A stretch of 64,000 nt of DNA from Brachyspira hampsonii (GTDB lineage: Bacteria > Spirochaetota > Brachyspiria > Brachyspirales > Brachyspiraceae). Each line of letters opens with the position of its first letter. Within the stretch, counting starts at the first letter, position 1. This document shows, piece by piece, positions 4,912 to 22,411 of this stretch. The position numbers and the translations under genes were made by a program. The notes below the pieces were generated by a model, which was not told the origin of the DNA, made no database searches, and saw nothing but the letters and a program-made list of their open reading frames with translations. The stretch covers positions 2,728,001 through 2,792,000 of the forward strand of contig NZ_CP019914.1 in the NCBI RefSeq assembly GCF_002214805.1, in the 5' to 3' direction.

Positions 4912-5020
4912 TTATTTACCAATTTTTATTTATGATTGATAAATAATATATTCATAATAAAAAAATAACAATATTATTTAACTATTTTTAATTTTTAAAA
5001 GGTATAATTATAAAAATTAA

Positions 5021-5354
5021 GCGGAGCTATAAGCCGTATTCTGTCATTTAAGGTAAACATTTATCTTGATATTATATTGCTATAATATTCCAGCGAGCCA
5101 CCTGAAACTTAGGAAAAGGGCAATCCGTTTCTGTTTGCTCTTGCCTCTCATGGGGTTTACACTGCCATTCATGTCGCCACAAATGCGGTATGCTCTTACC
5201 ATGCCTTTTCACCCTTACCAAATCGGCGGTATATTTTCTGCTGCACTTTCCATAGACTTTCGTCTTCAAGCCGTTAGCTTGCATGATGCCCTTTAGAGGT
5301 ACGGACTTTCCTCAGTATTAGTTACTTAAATACCGCGTTTACCCGCTCCGCATG
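5021..5354 (-). ncRNA. rnpB: RNase P RNA (bacterial type A)
   Basis: This is the catalytic RNA that matures tRNA 5' ends. Read on the minus strand, it has the hallmark GAGGAAAGTCC (plus-strand 5303-5313) near the 5' end and ACAGAATACGGCTTATAGC near the 3' end. Helix P1 is visible: GCGGAGC (5345-5351) pairs with GCTCCGC (5021-5027). The local G+C is clearly higher than in the surroundings. Open frames across it on both strands are artefacts of this composition. Ends are set from P1 and may be off by a few bases. Confidence 0.95.
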
Positions 5355-18461: not shown

Positions 18462-19490
18462 TTATTTCCAAAAAGCTCCCACTCTTTTTTTTACATTTTC
18501 TTTTAAATCATAATAGTAAAGAGCAATATCATAAACATGGTAAACACCTTTTTCAAAAATTCCTCCTCCTCTTACATAAAAGTCATCAGGATTTATAGTG
18601 CTGCATTTTACAACACCTCTTGCCTTATCAATTTTGGCATCGGCTATTTTTGAAGGTTTTCCTGCATTTGTAACTATGTTGGATTTAGGGTTTCCATAAT
18701 TATGTGCTATATTTGCACCTAAACTCTGTTCTTTTGCGGCTAGAGTTTCATCTAATGTCCAAGATATAGGATTTATTGAAATAGCCCCTTCAAGAAGTGT
18801 AGGGTTATATCCATTAAAATCAGGAGCTTCTGTATTATAAGAAATTATTACTCCTGTATCATATTCTCCGTTTGCAAATCTCAAATGAGGATTTTCATCT
18901 AAGTCTTTCTTTGTAACTGAATATCCGAATATATAGGCTGCTATCATTCTGTTCTTTAAATTTTCATTTGTTTTGAAATAGTCAATTAATATTTGTTTTA
19001 TCATCATAGCCCCTTGAGAATGCCCTGCTAATATAAACGGTTTTCCATTATTATAATTTTTAATATAATAATCGAATGCTGCTATTGCATCTTCTTTTGG
19101 TGAAGAATAAAAATACTTATCCTGTTCTTCTTTACTAATATTATTATTTGTATTCATCAAGTATAAAGCATCAGCCTGTCTGTAAAACGGAGCATACACA
19201 TTTGCTGTTTCTTCAAATATTCCTGTTTGTTCAAGCATAGAATTGGTAACGGTTTTTCTCATAGGTTCATAGTCTATAGGACATACTATACTGTCATTTG
19301 AATTTGCTCTGCTCCATGTTGTAGGATATAGATAAAATACATCTGCTTCATTTGATGTTGAAGGGATATTAAGCCAATTATTTTTGTCTGAATAATCTGT
19401 TAGTTTTATTTCTGCTGCGGTATTATTGTTATTTGCTGTGCAGCTTAGAATTATAATACTTGATAAAATAGTAATAAAAATTTTTATCAT
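18462..19490 (-). CDS. DUF3089 family alpha/beta-hydrolase lipoprotein
   Basis: A 342-residue predicted lipoprotein with lipobox ILSC near residue 17. The DUF3089 pattern is clear: NWLNIPSTSNEADVFYLYPTTW, NVYAPFYRQADALYL, AFDYYIKNYNNGKPFILAGHSQGAMM with the GHSQG nucleophile elbow (about residue 158), and a late VYHVYDIALYYYDLKENV. It is probably a secreted or surface serine hydrolase; the substrate is unknown. ATG at 19490 follows GAGAGGAA at good spacing and is preferred over the in-frame ATG 15 bases upstream. Confidence 0.85.
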   Translation of the reverse strand: MIKIFITILSSIIILSCTANNNNTAAEIKLTDYSDKNNWLNIPSTSNEADVFYLYPTTWSRANSNDSIVCPIDYEPMRKTVTNSMLEQTGIFEETANVYAPFYRQADALYLMNTNNNISKEEQDKYFYSSPKEDAIAAFDYYIKNYNNGKPFILAGHSQGAMMIKQILIDYFKTNENLKNRMIAAYIFGYSVTKKDLDENPHLRFANGEYDTGVIISYNTEAPDFNGYNPTLLEGAISINPISWTLDETLAAKEQSLGANIAHNYGNPKSNIVTNAGKPSKIADAKIDKARGVVKCSTINPDDFYVRGGGIFEKGVYHVYDIALYYYDLKENVKKRVGAFWK

Positions 19491-19808
19491 TTTAATTCCT
19501 CTCATTATTTTTTAATAAGAGAAATATTATAATGTATAAAAATTAAAATCAATAATAATTTTTTATTGCTGCTAATATTACTAATAGGAATTATATATTA
19601 ATCATATTATAACTTTTTAGTGAATTTATTGCTGGCAGTAATTAGTGATAAAATATATTAACTTTTCCAGATGTAAAAGTTGCAAAAGTACATATATAAA
19701 AAATTATATAATAATATAAAATTGTAAATAATTAAATTTAAAAAAGTTTTTTTATTCACACACTTTATATTTTACGAATAAAGTTCTTAATTTTTCATTT
19801 ATTCAGCT
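19491..19808. other. intergenic region
   Basis: This AT-rich gap lies between two minus-strand genes, presumably with the promoter of the DUF3089 gene. No clear terminator or repeat is seen. Confidence 0.5.
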
Positions 19809-21041
19809 TTAATTACTATAAGTTATTTCTTTTCCTATAAAGCTGTCTGTGAATTTGCCATTATCATATACTATATTTCCGCGTACTATAGTAGTTAAAA
19901 CTTTGCCTCCTCTTTGAAAACCTATATAAGGAGACCAGCCTGCTTTAGTGATTATATCTTTTTCTTCTATTTCTGAATGGTCATTTAAATCTATTATTAC
20001 TAAATCAGCATCATAATTTTCTTTTAATAAGCCTTTATCTTTCATAGAGAAAATTTCTGCAGCTTTTTCACTCATAATTTTTGTAAGCAGTTTTAAATCT
20101 ATAGTATTGTCATTAACTTTTTTAAGCATCAATTCAAGCGAATGTTCAACAGAAGGAACGCCGAATGTAAGTTTTTCTAATTTTTCACTTATCAAATGAG
20201 GAGCATGATCTGTTCCTATTGTATCTATAGTACCATCTGATATCGCTTTCCATAATGCTTTATTATCTGATTTTTCTCTTAATTCAGGCTTCATTCTAAG
20301 GAGCATTTTATTTCTATCATTTTTATTTACATCTTCAGTATTTAAAAATAAATGATGAGGAGTAGCCTCTCCATAAATTATCATTCCTGAATCTTTTGCT
20401 TTTTTTAATGATTCAATTTCGCTTTCTAGTGATAAATGGCATAAGTATAACGGAGTATTAGTATTTTTTGCTATTTTTATTGCCTTATCAACCATTTTAT
20501 CTTCTGCATGAACTGTAACTATTTTTGAAACTTCAAATAACTTTTCTAATATTTTATCATCTTCTACAAGCATATTTCCTGTAGAAGCATTAAAGAAAAT
20601 TTTTGTTGATGCTGCATCATTAATAATATTTTTTATATCATTGCTGTTATCTGCTTTGCTTCCTCCGAAATGAAATCCGTAATCCACATAAGATTTTCCA
20701 ATAATCATAGATTTTTTTGCAATGAGATTTTCTCTTGAAATAGTATTTGGTACAGTATTAGGCATATCCAAAAATACTGTAATTCCTCCTCTTGCACATG
20801 CTTTGCTTCCGGAATTAAAATCTTCTTTATGAGTGAGTCCGGGATCTCTCATATGTGTATGCGGATCTATTATTCCTGAAATCACATAATTGTAATTAGC
20901 ATCTATTATATCATCTACTTTATTATCAGATATATATTTTTTAAAGTTATTATCAGAATCTATATTTTTTATTTTTCCATTTTCTATTATTATAGAAACT
21001 ATTTTTTCATTGTTTGGTATTTTAGCATTTTTGATTATCAT
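19809..21041 (-). CDS. pyrC: dihydroorotase
   Basis: A 410-residue class I dihydroorotase, third step of UMP synthesis (carbamoyl-aspartate to dihydroorotate). Metal ligands are seen in GIIDPHTHMRDPG (about 58-70, HxH), VTVHAED (about 175), LYLCHLS (about 198) and IGTDHAPH (about 280, catalytic Asp). Substrate loop FLDMPNTVPNT is present. It lies 16 bases after pyrB and forms an operon with it, so it should share the upstream attenuator. Confidence 0.93.
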   Translation of the reverse strand: MIIKNAKIPNNEKIVSIIIENGKIKNIDSDNNFKKYISDNKVDDIIDANYNYVISGIIDPHTHMRDPGLTHKEDFNSGSKACARGGITVFLDMPNTVPNTISRENLIAKKSMIIGKSYVDYGFHFGGSKADNSNDIKNIINDAASTKIFFNASTGNMLVEDDKILEKLFEVSKIVTVHAEDKMVDKAIKIAKNTNTPLYLCHLSLESEIESLKKAKDSGMIIYGEATPHHLFLNTEDVNKNDRNKMLLRMKPELREKSDNKALWKAISDGTIDTIGTDHAPHLISEKLEKLTFGVPSVEHSLELMLKKVNDNTIDLKLLTKIMSEKAAEIFSMKDKGLLKENYDADLVIIDLNDHSEIEEKDIITKAGWSPYIGFQRGGKVLTTIVRGNIVYDNGKFTDSFIGKEITYSN

Positions 21042-21057
21042 AATTTACCTTAATAAT

Positions 21058-22137
21058 TTATTTACCTATTTCTCTATTGCAGTAATAACAGAAATCTCCG
21101 TATCCCTTCTTCACAACTCTATTTTTTGTCTCTTCAAAATGTGTAACGCATTTATTATTTGGACAAACTATTTCTTTATTTTCTACAACCTCATAATTCA
21201 TTTCTTTTCTTTTTACCTTAGATTTTATAACATCTGTAGCCAAAGCCATCATAGCCATTCTTGTAGGCACTCCGTTTCTAGCCTGTATAAAATATTTAGC
21301 ATATTTGGTATCATCTAAATCTATATTAATTTCATCAACTCTTGGAAGAGGGTGAAGTATTATCATATCCTCTTTACATTTTCCTATAATATCGTCTTTT
21401 GATATTCTAAATGCATTTTTTACTTCTTCATATTCATTAATATCATCAAATCTTTCTTTTTGTATTCTAGTCATATATAGGCAGTCTATTTCTTTTAATA
21501 CTTCTTCATAATTACTAAGTTTTTTATATTTAATTTTGGCATTATCCAATTCTTTTAATACATAATCCGGTATTTGTATAACATCCGGAGATATAAAATA
21601 AAACTCTCCATTAAACATCATTAATCCATCTACTAGAGAGTGAACAGTTCTTCCGTATCTTGTATCTCCTACAAAAGCGATTTTTTTATTTTCTATAGTT
21701 CCTAATTCTTCTCTTAATGTGTATAAATCCAACAGAGTTTGACTAGGGTGTTCATTGGCACCGTCTCCGGCATTTATAATAGGACAGTTTGTAACTTCTT
21801 CAGCAAATTTAGCAGCTCCGTCAATACTATGTCTCATGACTATAATATCTGAATATGCAGAAACCATAATTATGGTGTCTCTTAAAGATTCTCCTTTTTT
21901 TACGGAACTTTGTTCTGGGTTATCAAATCCTAATTCTTTGCATCCTAATCTGTAAGCTGCTGATGTGAATGATAATCTTGTCCTAGTAGAAGGCTCAAAG
22001 AATATGCTGGTCATTATCATTCCGTCCATAATTTTTCTTCTTTCTCTACTATCAGTGTTATCTAACTCCTTAGCTACATCTAATACTTCAATAACTTCCT
22101 CTTTTGATAACTCTTTGATAGATATAAAGTTCCTCAT
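21058..22137 (-). CDS. pyrB: aspartate carbamoyltransferase with fused PyrI-type zinc domain
   Basis: A 359-residue protein. Residues 1 to about 308 are a full PyrB: FFEPSTRTRLSF (carbamoyl-phosphate site, about 47-58), HPSQTLLDLYTL, the aspartate-binding HPLPRVDEI, and GVPTRMAMMAL at the end. A C-terminal extension (about 322-359) has EIVCPNNKCVTHFEE and FCYYCNREIG. This is the Cys4 zinc domain of the PyrI regulatory chain (CPN-x2-C ... C-x2-C), but the nucleotide-binding allosteric domain is absent. The ribosome site is GGGAG. It is cotranscribed with pyrC and preceded by an attenuator-like leader. Confidence 0.93.
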   Translation of the reverse strand: MRNFISIKELSKEEVIEVLDVAKELDNTDSRERRKIMDGMIMTSIFFEPSTRTRLSFTSAAYRLGCKELGFDNPEQSSVKKGESLRDTIIMVSAYSDIIVMRHSIDGAAKFAEEVTNCPIINAGDGANEHPSQTLLDLYTLREELGTIENKKIAFVGDTRYGRTVHSLVDGLMMFNGEFYFISPDVIQIPDYVLKELDNAKIKYKKLSNYEEVLKEIDCLYMTRIQKERFDDINEYEEVKNAFRISKDDIIGKCKEDMIILHPLPRVDEINIDLDDTKYAKYFIQARNGVPTRMAMMALATDVIKSKVKRKEMNYEVVENKEIVCPNNKCVTHFEETKNRVVKKGYGDFCYYCNREIGK

Positions 22138-22158
22138 TATTTCTCCCTTAAAAAATAG

Positions 22159-22320
22159 TTAATAGTTTTGTTGAAATTCGGCATAAAAAAAAGGAATAAA
22201 ATTGTTAAAGATAACAACTTTATTCCTTTTAAAAAATTTCAAATTCGTAAATTTAAATAAACAAATAAAATAGGTGTGTAAATAAAAAATTATCCTGTGC
22301 TTAAGAAACATATTTTTCAT
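22159..22320 (-). CDS. candidate pyr leader peptide
   Basis: A 53-codon frame, MKNMFLKHRIIFYLHTYF at its start, rich in Phe, Ile and Tyr, preceded by AGGATAAAAA. It begins about 24 nt after the predicted transcription start, runs through the terminator hairpin at 22185-22226 and stops at 22159, 21 bases before pyrB. This matches the layout of the enterobacterial PyrL leader. The peptide itself is probably unimportant; its translation would be the regulatory event. AT-rich DNA makes chance frames likely, so this is a candidate. Confidence 0.5.
   Translation of the reverse strand: MKNMFLKHRIIFYLHTYFICLFKFTNLKFFKRNKVVIFNNFIPFFYAEFQQNY
22185..22226 (-). terminator. intrinsic terminator/attenuator in the pyrB leader
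   Basis: On the minus strand GGAATAAAGTTGTTA (22226-22212) pairs with TAACAATTTTATTCC (22207-22193): 15 pairs with one G-U and a 4-nt loop, followed by eight T (22192-22185). It stands between the promoter and pyrB, where only an attenuator makes sense. Confidence 0.85.
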
Positions 22321-22350
22321 TTTTTATCCTGTTCTTTACAAATTGAACGG

Positions 22351-22378
22351 ATTATATCATGTATATAAAAAAAATCAA
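22351..22378 (-). promoter_or_regulatory. pyrBC promoter
   Basis: TTGATT (22378-22373), 16 nt and TATAAT (22356-22351) on the minus strand. +1 is near 22344, giving a leader of about 207 nt before pyrB. Confidence 0.7.
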
Positions 22379-22411
22379 GTATAAATTTATAATTTATATA
22401 TTTTTGGTATA

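Follow-up and report, generated by a model that had tools for sequence, protein, structure and literature searches.

The pyrB locus of Brachyspira hampsonii raises the question of how a spirochaete controls its pyrimidine genes. Ribosome-coupled sensing of UTP is textbook material, described chiefly for enteric bacteria, and the coupling of transcription to translation has, to our knowledge, been little studied in spirochaetes and fusobacteria. In the attenuation of E. coli pyrBI (PMC10135430, PMC5021804, PMC6245113), 49% of the pyrL template requires U, the polymerase pauses on it at low UTP and the ribosome can then prevent the terminator (PMC10135430, PMC5021804). A preliminary description had proposed the same control for the pyrBC operon of this organism. 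The proposal was analysed in the window, which is the whole stretch of 64,000 nucleotides at G000:C1:2728001-2792000, and across 26 Brachyspira genomes; 24 of these hold a full pyrB and their 24 upstream regions were compared. The results point to a pyrBI-type, ribosome-coupled attenuator as the likely means by which UTP sets pyrBC expression, with reiterative initiation as a probable addition.

Anatomy of the pyrB leader

The features of the locus are given below in window coordinates.

22373..22378, minus strand: -35 element TTGATT, T-T-G kept in every alignable row
22351..22356, minus strand: -10 element TATAAT with TG upstream, column identity averaging 0.94 over 24 species
22339..22344, minus strand: putative transcription start AATTTG and candidate site of UTP-dependent reiterative initiation (slippage), from conservation and the E. 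coli pyrBI match
22327..22330, minus strand: leader ribosome-binding site AGGA, GG kept in 23-24 of 24 species
22159..22320, minus strand: leader ORF of 53 codons (pyrL-like), frame open into the hairpin in 24 of 24
22284..22289, minus strand: U6 run in the leader, candidate UTP-sensitive pause, from sequence and alignment
22231..22236, minus strand: conserved U run adjoining the 5' side of the hairpin, candidate UTP-sensitive pause, from sequence and alignment
22189..22230, minus strand: attenuator hairpin (intrinsic terminator stem-loop), from folding and covariation
22185..22192, minus strand: terminator U8 tract, T run conserved
22143..22147, minus strand: pyrB ribosome-binding site GGGAG, read from the sequence
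21058..22137, minus strand: pyrB, aspartate carbamoyltransferase, OTCace_N and OTCace domains, best structure matches ATCases
19809..21041, minus strand: pyrC-like amidohydrolase (dihydroorotase), Amidohydro_1, second in the operon and 16 nt after pyrB

This anatomy is in agreement with the preliminary description, which had named the promoter, a 53-codon frame with its ribosome site starting about 24 nt after +1, a 15-pair hairpin with eight T inside that frame and a leader stop 21 bases before pyrB. The leader ATG lies 24 nt past the first A of AATTTG (22344), and the ORF ends at 22159, its stop being 21 nt upstream of the pyrB ATG at 22137. The pyrBI-like AATTT start is an addition to the features named earlier. 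Promoter, ribosome site with leader ORF, and terminator hairpin with U tract were present at all 24 Brachyspira pyrB loci, the hairpin and its U tract being placed 37-68 nt upstream of pyrB. Among 44 genes of the window, pyrB was the only match of the terminator and leader finder.

The PyrB protein is 99% identical to that of B. hampsonii 30446. Its C-terminal tail, as read from the sequence (window 21058-21160, minus strand), carries four cysteines (CPNNKC...CYYC) and looks like a PyrI zinc domain attached to the catalytic chain; Cetobacterium and Fusobacterium PyrB have a comparable tail, and in genomes G193-G195 it is a separate stretch nearby. The window also holds a DUF3089 protein downstream of pyrC (18462-19505, minus strand) and a class A RNase P RNA (5014-5354, minus strand). 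In one Brachyspira genome (G012, 98% complete, 460 contigs) neither pyrB nor the PyrR homologue was found; it is possibly a pyrimidine auxotroph, or the genes fall in assembly gaps.

Open frame of the leader

From its ATG to the hairpin the leader frame was free of stops in 24 of 24 loci, with the other two frames closed in 24 and 23 of 24, these sequences being kin and so not 24 independent trials. Dinucleotide shuffles kept the frame open in just 4-12% of cases per sequence. The preliminary description had expected a cross-species alignment to show a conserved promoter, frame and hairpin with synonymous changes. Promoter, open frame and hairpin are indeed conserved; the part concerning one and the same frame with synonymous changes did not stand, as the peptide is variable and indels alter the reading frame within the leader (YLFKFTNLEFFKRNK vs YLNLLSWNFLKGNK) and also inside the hairpin (KVVIFNNFIPFF vs IKLLSLTILFLF). 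An excess of third-position change was seen in the first 14 codons only, where codon-by-codon alignment is possible in 18 species (3.17 vs 1.72 and 0.94); the remainder is not alignable by codon. Despite the indels, a stop before the hairpin is absent in all 24 leaders, which argues for selection on the ribosome reaching the hairpin and not on the peptide.

Terminator hairpin

The hairpin has a 15-pair core, GGAAT...ATTCC, or 19 pairs when the flanking A-T pairs are counted, and eight T follow the core, the first four of the U8 tract being able to pair with AAAA at 22227-22230. Folding of the leader gave a z value of -3.9 and none of 200 shuffles was as good. An intrinsic terminator with dG of -13.8 to -22.5 was present between promoter and pyrB in all 24 Brachyspira. 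Among 23 distinct stems from Brachyspira and Fusobacteriota, 96% of the cells were paired, compared with 81% when shuffled and at most 57% when slid, and changes on both sides affected 9 pairs and 53 cells, compared with 18 cells when shuffled and at most 11 when slid. Since the choice of stems required a GGAAT...ATTCC base and 11 pairs or more, the pairs of the base are paired by construction and the evidence lies in the both-side changes of the stem interior.

RNAalifold on 13 Brachyspira leaders predicted the terminator helix and no second conserved helix, and Rfam at a relaxed threshold gave chance matches only on the leader. As the terminator is the sole conserved helix, there is no antiterminator on which PyrR, riboswitch or trp-type control could depend, leaving just the terminator, which a ribosome is able to cover.

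Composition of the leader and proposed mechanism

The 60 nt before the stem contain 48-60% U in all 24 Brachyspira species and 58% in this window, compared with a mean of 32% for window CDS (99th percentile 50%) and 39% for intergenic sequence. Among intergenic 60-mers of the window 1.1% reach 58% U and 14% reach 50%, and the U-richness of the leader is partly a low-GC effect. UTP is taken as the probable signal because of this U composition, the gene that is controlled and the analogy with E. coli. No comparable leader was found at the xanthine/uracil permease genes examined.

RNA polymerase would start at AATTTG and transcribe the U-rich leader, while a ribosome would translate the leader ORF that runs into the intrinsic terminator. 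With plentiful UTP the polymerase would outrun the ribosome, the hairpin would form and transcription would end at about 156-158 nt. With scarce UTP the polymerase would pause in the U runs, so that the ribosome could close up and cover the hairpin's 5' arm, and the transcript would extend into pyrB. The open frame, the terminator, the U-rich leader and the genus-wide lack of a competing RNA structure and of a PyrR RNA element above cut-off are all consistent with this pyrBI-like control, as the preliminary description had suggested.

Promoter and initiation

The minus strand reads TTGATT-16-TATAAT, a six-base spacer and then AATTTG, and the corresponding sequence of E. coli pyrBI is TATAAT-GCCGGAC-AATTTG. 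Promoter-like matches numbered 11 where 12.3 were expected, so the match alone is not significant and the weight rests on its conservation. AATTT is conserved in 119 of 120 cells over 24 species and is the top block of the promoter region, above the -10 element (0.94); the blocks flanking it vary, with mean identity of 0.72 in the six bases before and 0.75 in the ten after. A putative start nucleotide with three or more T after it is seen as ATTT in all 24 species and as AATTT in 23. Transcription in Brachyspira thus probably begins at AATTTG as in E. coli pyrBI, judging from this conservation and likeness. A three-T run after the start permits UTP-dependent reiterative initiation, the effect being greater where the start is A than where it is G, and interruption of the run in carAB abolished control (PMC6245113). 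The conservation of AATTT, the pyrBI match and the role of three T in slippage together make UTP control at the level of initiation probable. In this second layer, which would belong to Brachyspira and not to Fusobacteriota, the AAUUU start would slip at high UTP and U would be added reiteratively; the AAUUUUn transcripts would be abortive and initiation would fall further.

The attenuator may be real and ribosome-coupled and AATTT merely a good start sequence without reiterative control. This is a variant of the proposed mechanism and is compatible with its attenuation layer; we hold it to be a real possibility, and one that we lean against. In its favour, the AATTT promoter pattern occurs at four sites genome-wide, the other three lying before groEL (locus L151), a GntR-type regulator (L152 1501-1539) and an acyltransferase, so that the sequence alone is no proof of regulation and a UTP regulon was not visible from this search. 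By inspection, the Fusobacteriota pyrB leaders also showed no AATTT start, their attenuators doing without it. A mere start sequence fits poorly with conservation above that of the -10 element itself while both flanks turn over, with the match to pyrBI, and with the loss of carAB control when the three-T run is broken (PMC6245113).

PyrR and other readings of the leader

The preliminary description had held that there is no PyrR, which is incorrect: a homologue is present in the genome (154 bits, NCBIfam cut-off 140) and exceeds that cut-off in 22 of 26 Brachyspira genomes, its best structural match being T. thermophilus PyrR. This protein with UMP could bind the pyrB leader and favour the terminator via an anti-antiterminator, a reading that is improbable on several grounds. 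The PyrR RNA element (RF00515) was not found above cut-off in the 26 Brachyspira genomes, the pyrB leader included, which bears out the earlier statement that no PyrR-binding anti-antiterminator is visible, and a terminator as the sole conserved helix leaves no competing antiterminator. The gene (G000:C1:2199607-2200059; L044 1456-1983, minus strand) is away from the pyrB operon and unlinked to other pyr genes, with flagellar (FliL/FliM-like) genes on one side and an acidic repeat protein on the other. The segment VDRGHRELPIRADFVGKN of solved PyrRs, some residues of which presumably bind RNA, is replaced by VDRFGRELPISANYVGLA in the Brachyspira homologue. No Upp over cut-off was found in this genome, which gives an enzymatic reason for keeping PyrR; along with the missing PyrR-binding RNA in the genus, it indicates that the homologue probably serves as uracil phosphoribosyltransferase.

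The leader ORF could also boost pyrB translation by reinitiation, the terminator then being a constitutive damper without UTP sensing. The leader stop 21 nt before pyrB in this window would suit such a role, and reinitiation has been proposed in general terms for leader ORFs (PMC4833913). The stop is not conserved, however. It lies within or beyond the hairpin in all 24 Brachyspira and in 35 of 36 Fusobacteriota (strict set), ranging in Brachyspira between a point in the hairpin and one beyond the pyrB start, and falling mostly inside the hairpin in Fusobacteriota. What is conserved is the reaching of the hairpin, the U-richness and AATTT, and the reinitiation reading is given little credence. 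Sensing of an amino acid by the leader peptide, as in pheL or trpL, is the least credible reading, since the richness of the peptides in Phe, Ile, Leu and Lys that speaks for it follows from U- and A-rich codons, the alternative antiterminator helix that it requires was not found, the peptide, control codons and even frames differ among species, and the product of pyrB makes no amino acid.

Relationship with Fusobacteriota

The putative ribosome-coupled attenuator, which the preliminary description had assigned to this spirochaete, has its architecture kept in 24 of 24 Brachyspira and is not peculiar to this organism, being shared with Fusobacteriota. Brachyspira pyrB is 60% identical to that of Cetobacterium and only about 35-38% to those of genera within the same family. 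A tree built from 59 pyrB sequences, sampled within Fusobacteriota and spirochaetes only, grouped Brachyspira with Fusobacteriota in a single clade (97/93), with five further spirochaete sequences outside it, and the fusobacterial pyrB is the closest relative found. Of 72 Fusobacteriota loci, at least 41 carry the leader architecture ahead of pyrB, which for this count meant a ribosome site, a leader ORF that extends to the stem or stops no more than 15 nt from it, and a terminator with dG < -12; at about 30 of the 72, Leptotrichia-like lineages among them, it was not found. These leaders share with Brachyspira the ORF with its ribosome site, the U-rich run and the pyrB clade, and their stems closely resemble those of Brachyspira (GGAATAGAAGTTAC...GTAATTTCTATTCC against GGAATAAAGTTACT...AGTGATTTTATTCC); they differ in the stop, which is usually inside the hairpin, and in lacking the AATTT start.

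Only three Fusobacteriota genomes have a clear PyrR of about 121 bits (L143-L145; G170, G168 and G169). In these three, pyrR adjoins a different pyrB (36-38% identical) with a PyrR RNA element upstream, two of the elements being over cut-off and one just below. They show Gram-positive-style control in a phylum where the leader attenuator is otherwise frequent, and leader control and PyrR control therefore seem to alternate within Fusobacteriota. Among viral contigs no relative was found.

The attenuator has possibly moved between phyla along with the pyrB gene. In its full form, the scenario is that pyrB and the ribosome-coupled UTP attenuator moved as a unit between Fusobacteriota and Brachyspira lineages, that the Brachyspira promoter then independently gained the AATTT reiterative start, and that the complete two-layer pyrBI circuit is convergent outside Proteobacteria; we entertain it tentatively, with slightly more doubt than belief.

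Comparison with known systems and significance

With E. coli pyrBI and its pyrL leader, the Brachyspira locus shares the AATTTG start after TATAAT, a leader ORF that continues into the intrinsic terminator preceding pyrB, the U-rich leader and an ATCase gene. The differences are that the E. coli leader ORF begins 18 nt after the start sequence and that of Brachyspira 24 nt; the spacing from the -10 element to the first A is 7 nt in E. coli and 6 nt in Brachyspira; the E. coli hairpin is short and GC-rich, whereas that of Brachyspira is AU-rich with 15 pairs, neither hairpin nor peptide showing resemblance; and the operon, pyrB (with its PyrI-like tail) followed by pyrC, is unlike pyrBI and belongs to another phylum. 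The Brachyspira attenuator is probably convergent with the enterobacterial one. We know of no leader attenuator of the pyrBI or Brachyspira kind at E. coli carAB. Its P1 promoter (GUUUGC) likewise senses UTP through a three-T run among the first transcribed bases (PMC6245113), and differs in its G start. PyrR/UMP attenuation also controls pyr genes by premature termination and has its protein in the Brachyspira genome; it differs in the RF00515 element and the antiterminator/anti-antiterminator pair, which Brachyspira lacks, and in the unlinked pyrR. A literature search covering few of the subscription journals found no description of a pyrB attenuator in Brachyspira or Fusobacteriota, and no RNA-seq data that would document the leader in either Brachyspira or Fusobacterium.

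The architecture shared by Brachyspira and Fusobacteria implies that an enteric-type control circuit appears to operate in two distant phyla, and the known pyrBI-type attenuation would gain examples in both. Its presence there, in one phylum apparently through the transfer of gene and switch together, would make the generality of UTP sensing testable. In spirochaetes and fusobacteria the leaders would also offer a natural assay of how transcription and translation are coupled, and they indicate alternation with PyrR control inside a single phylum.
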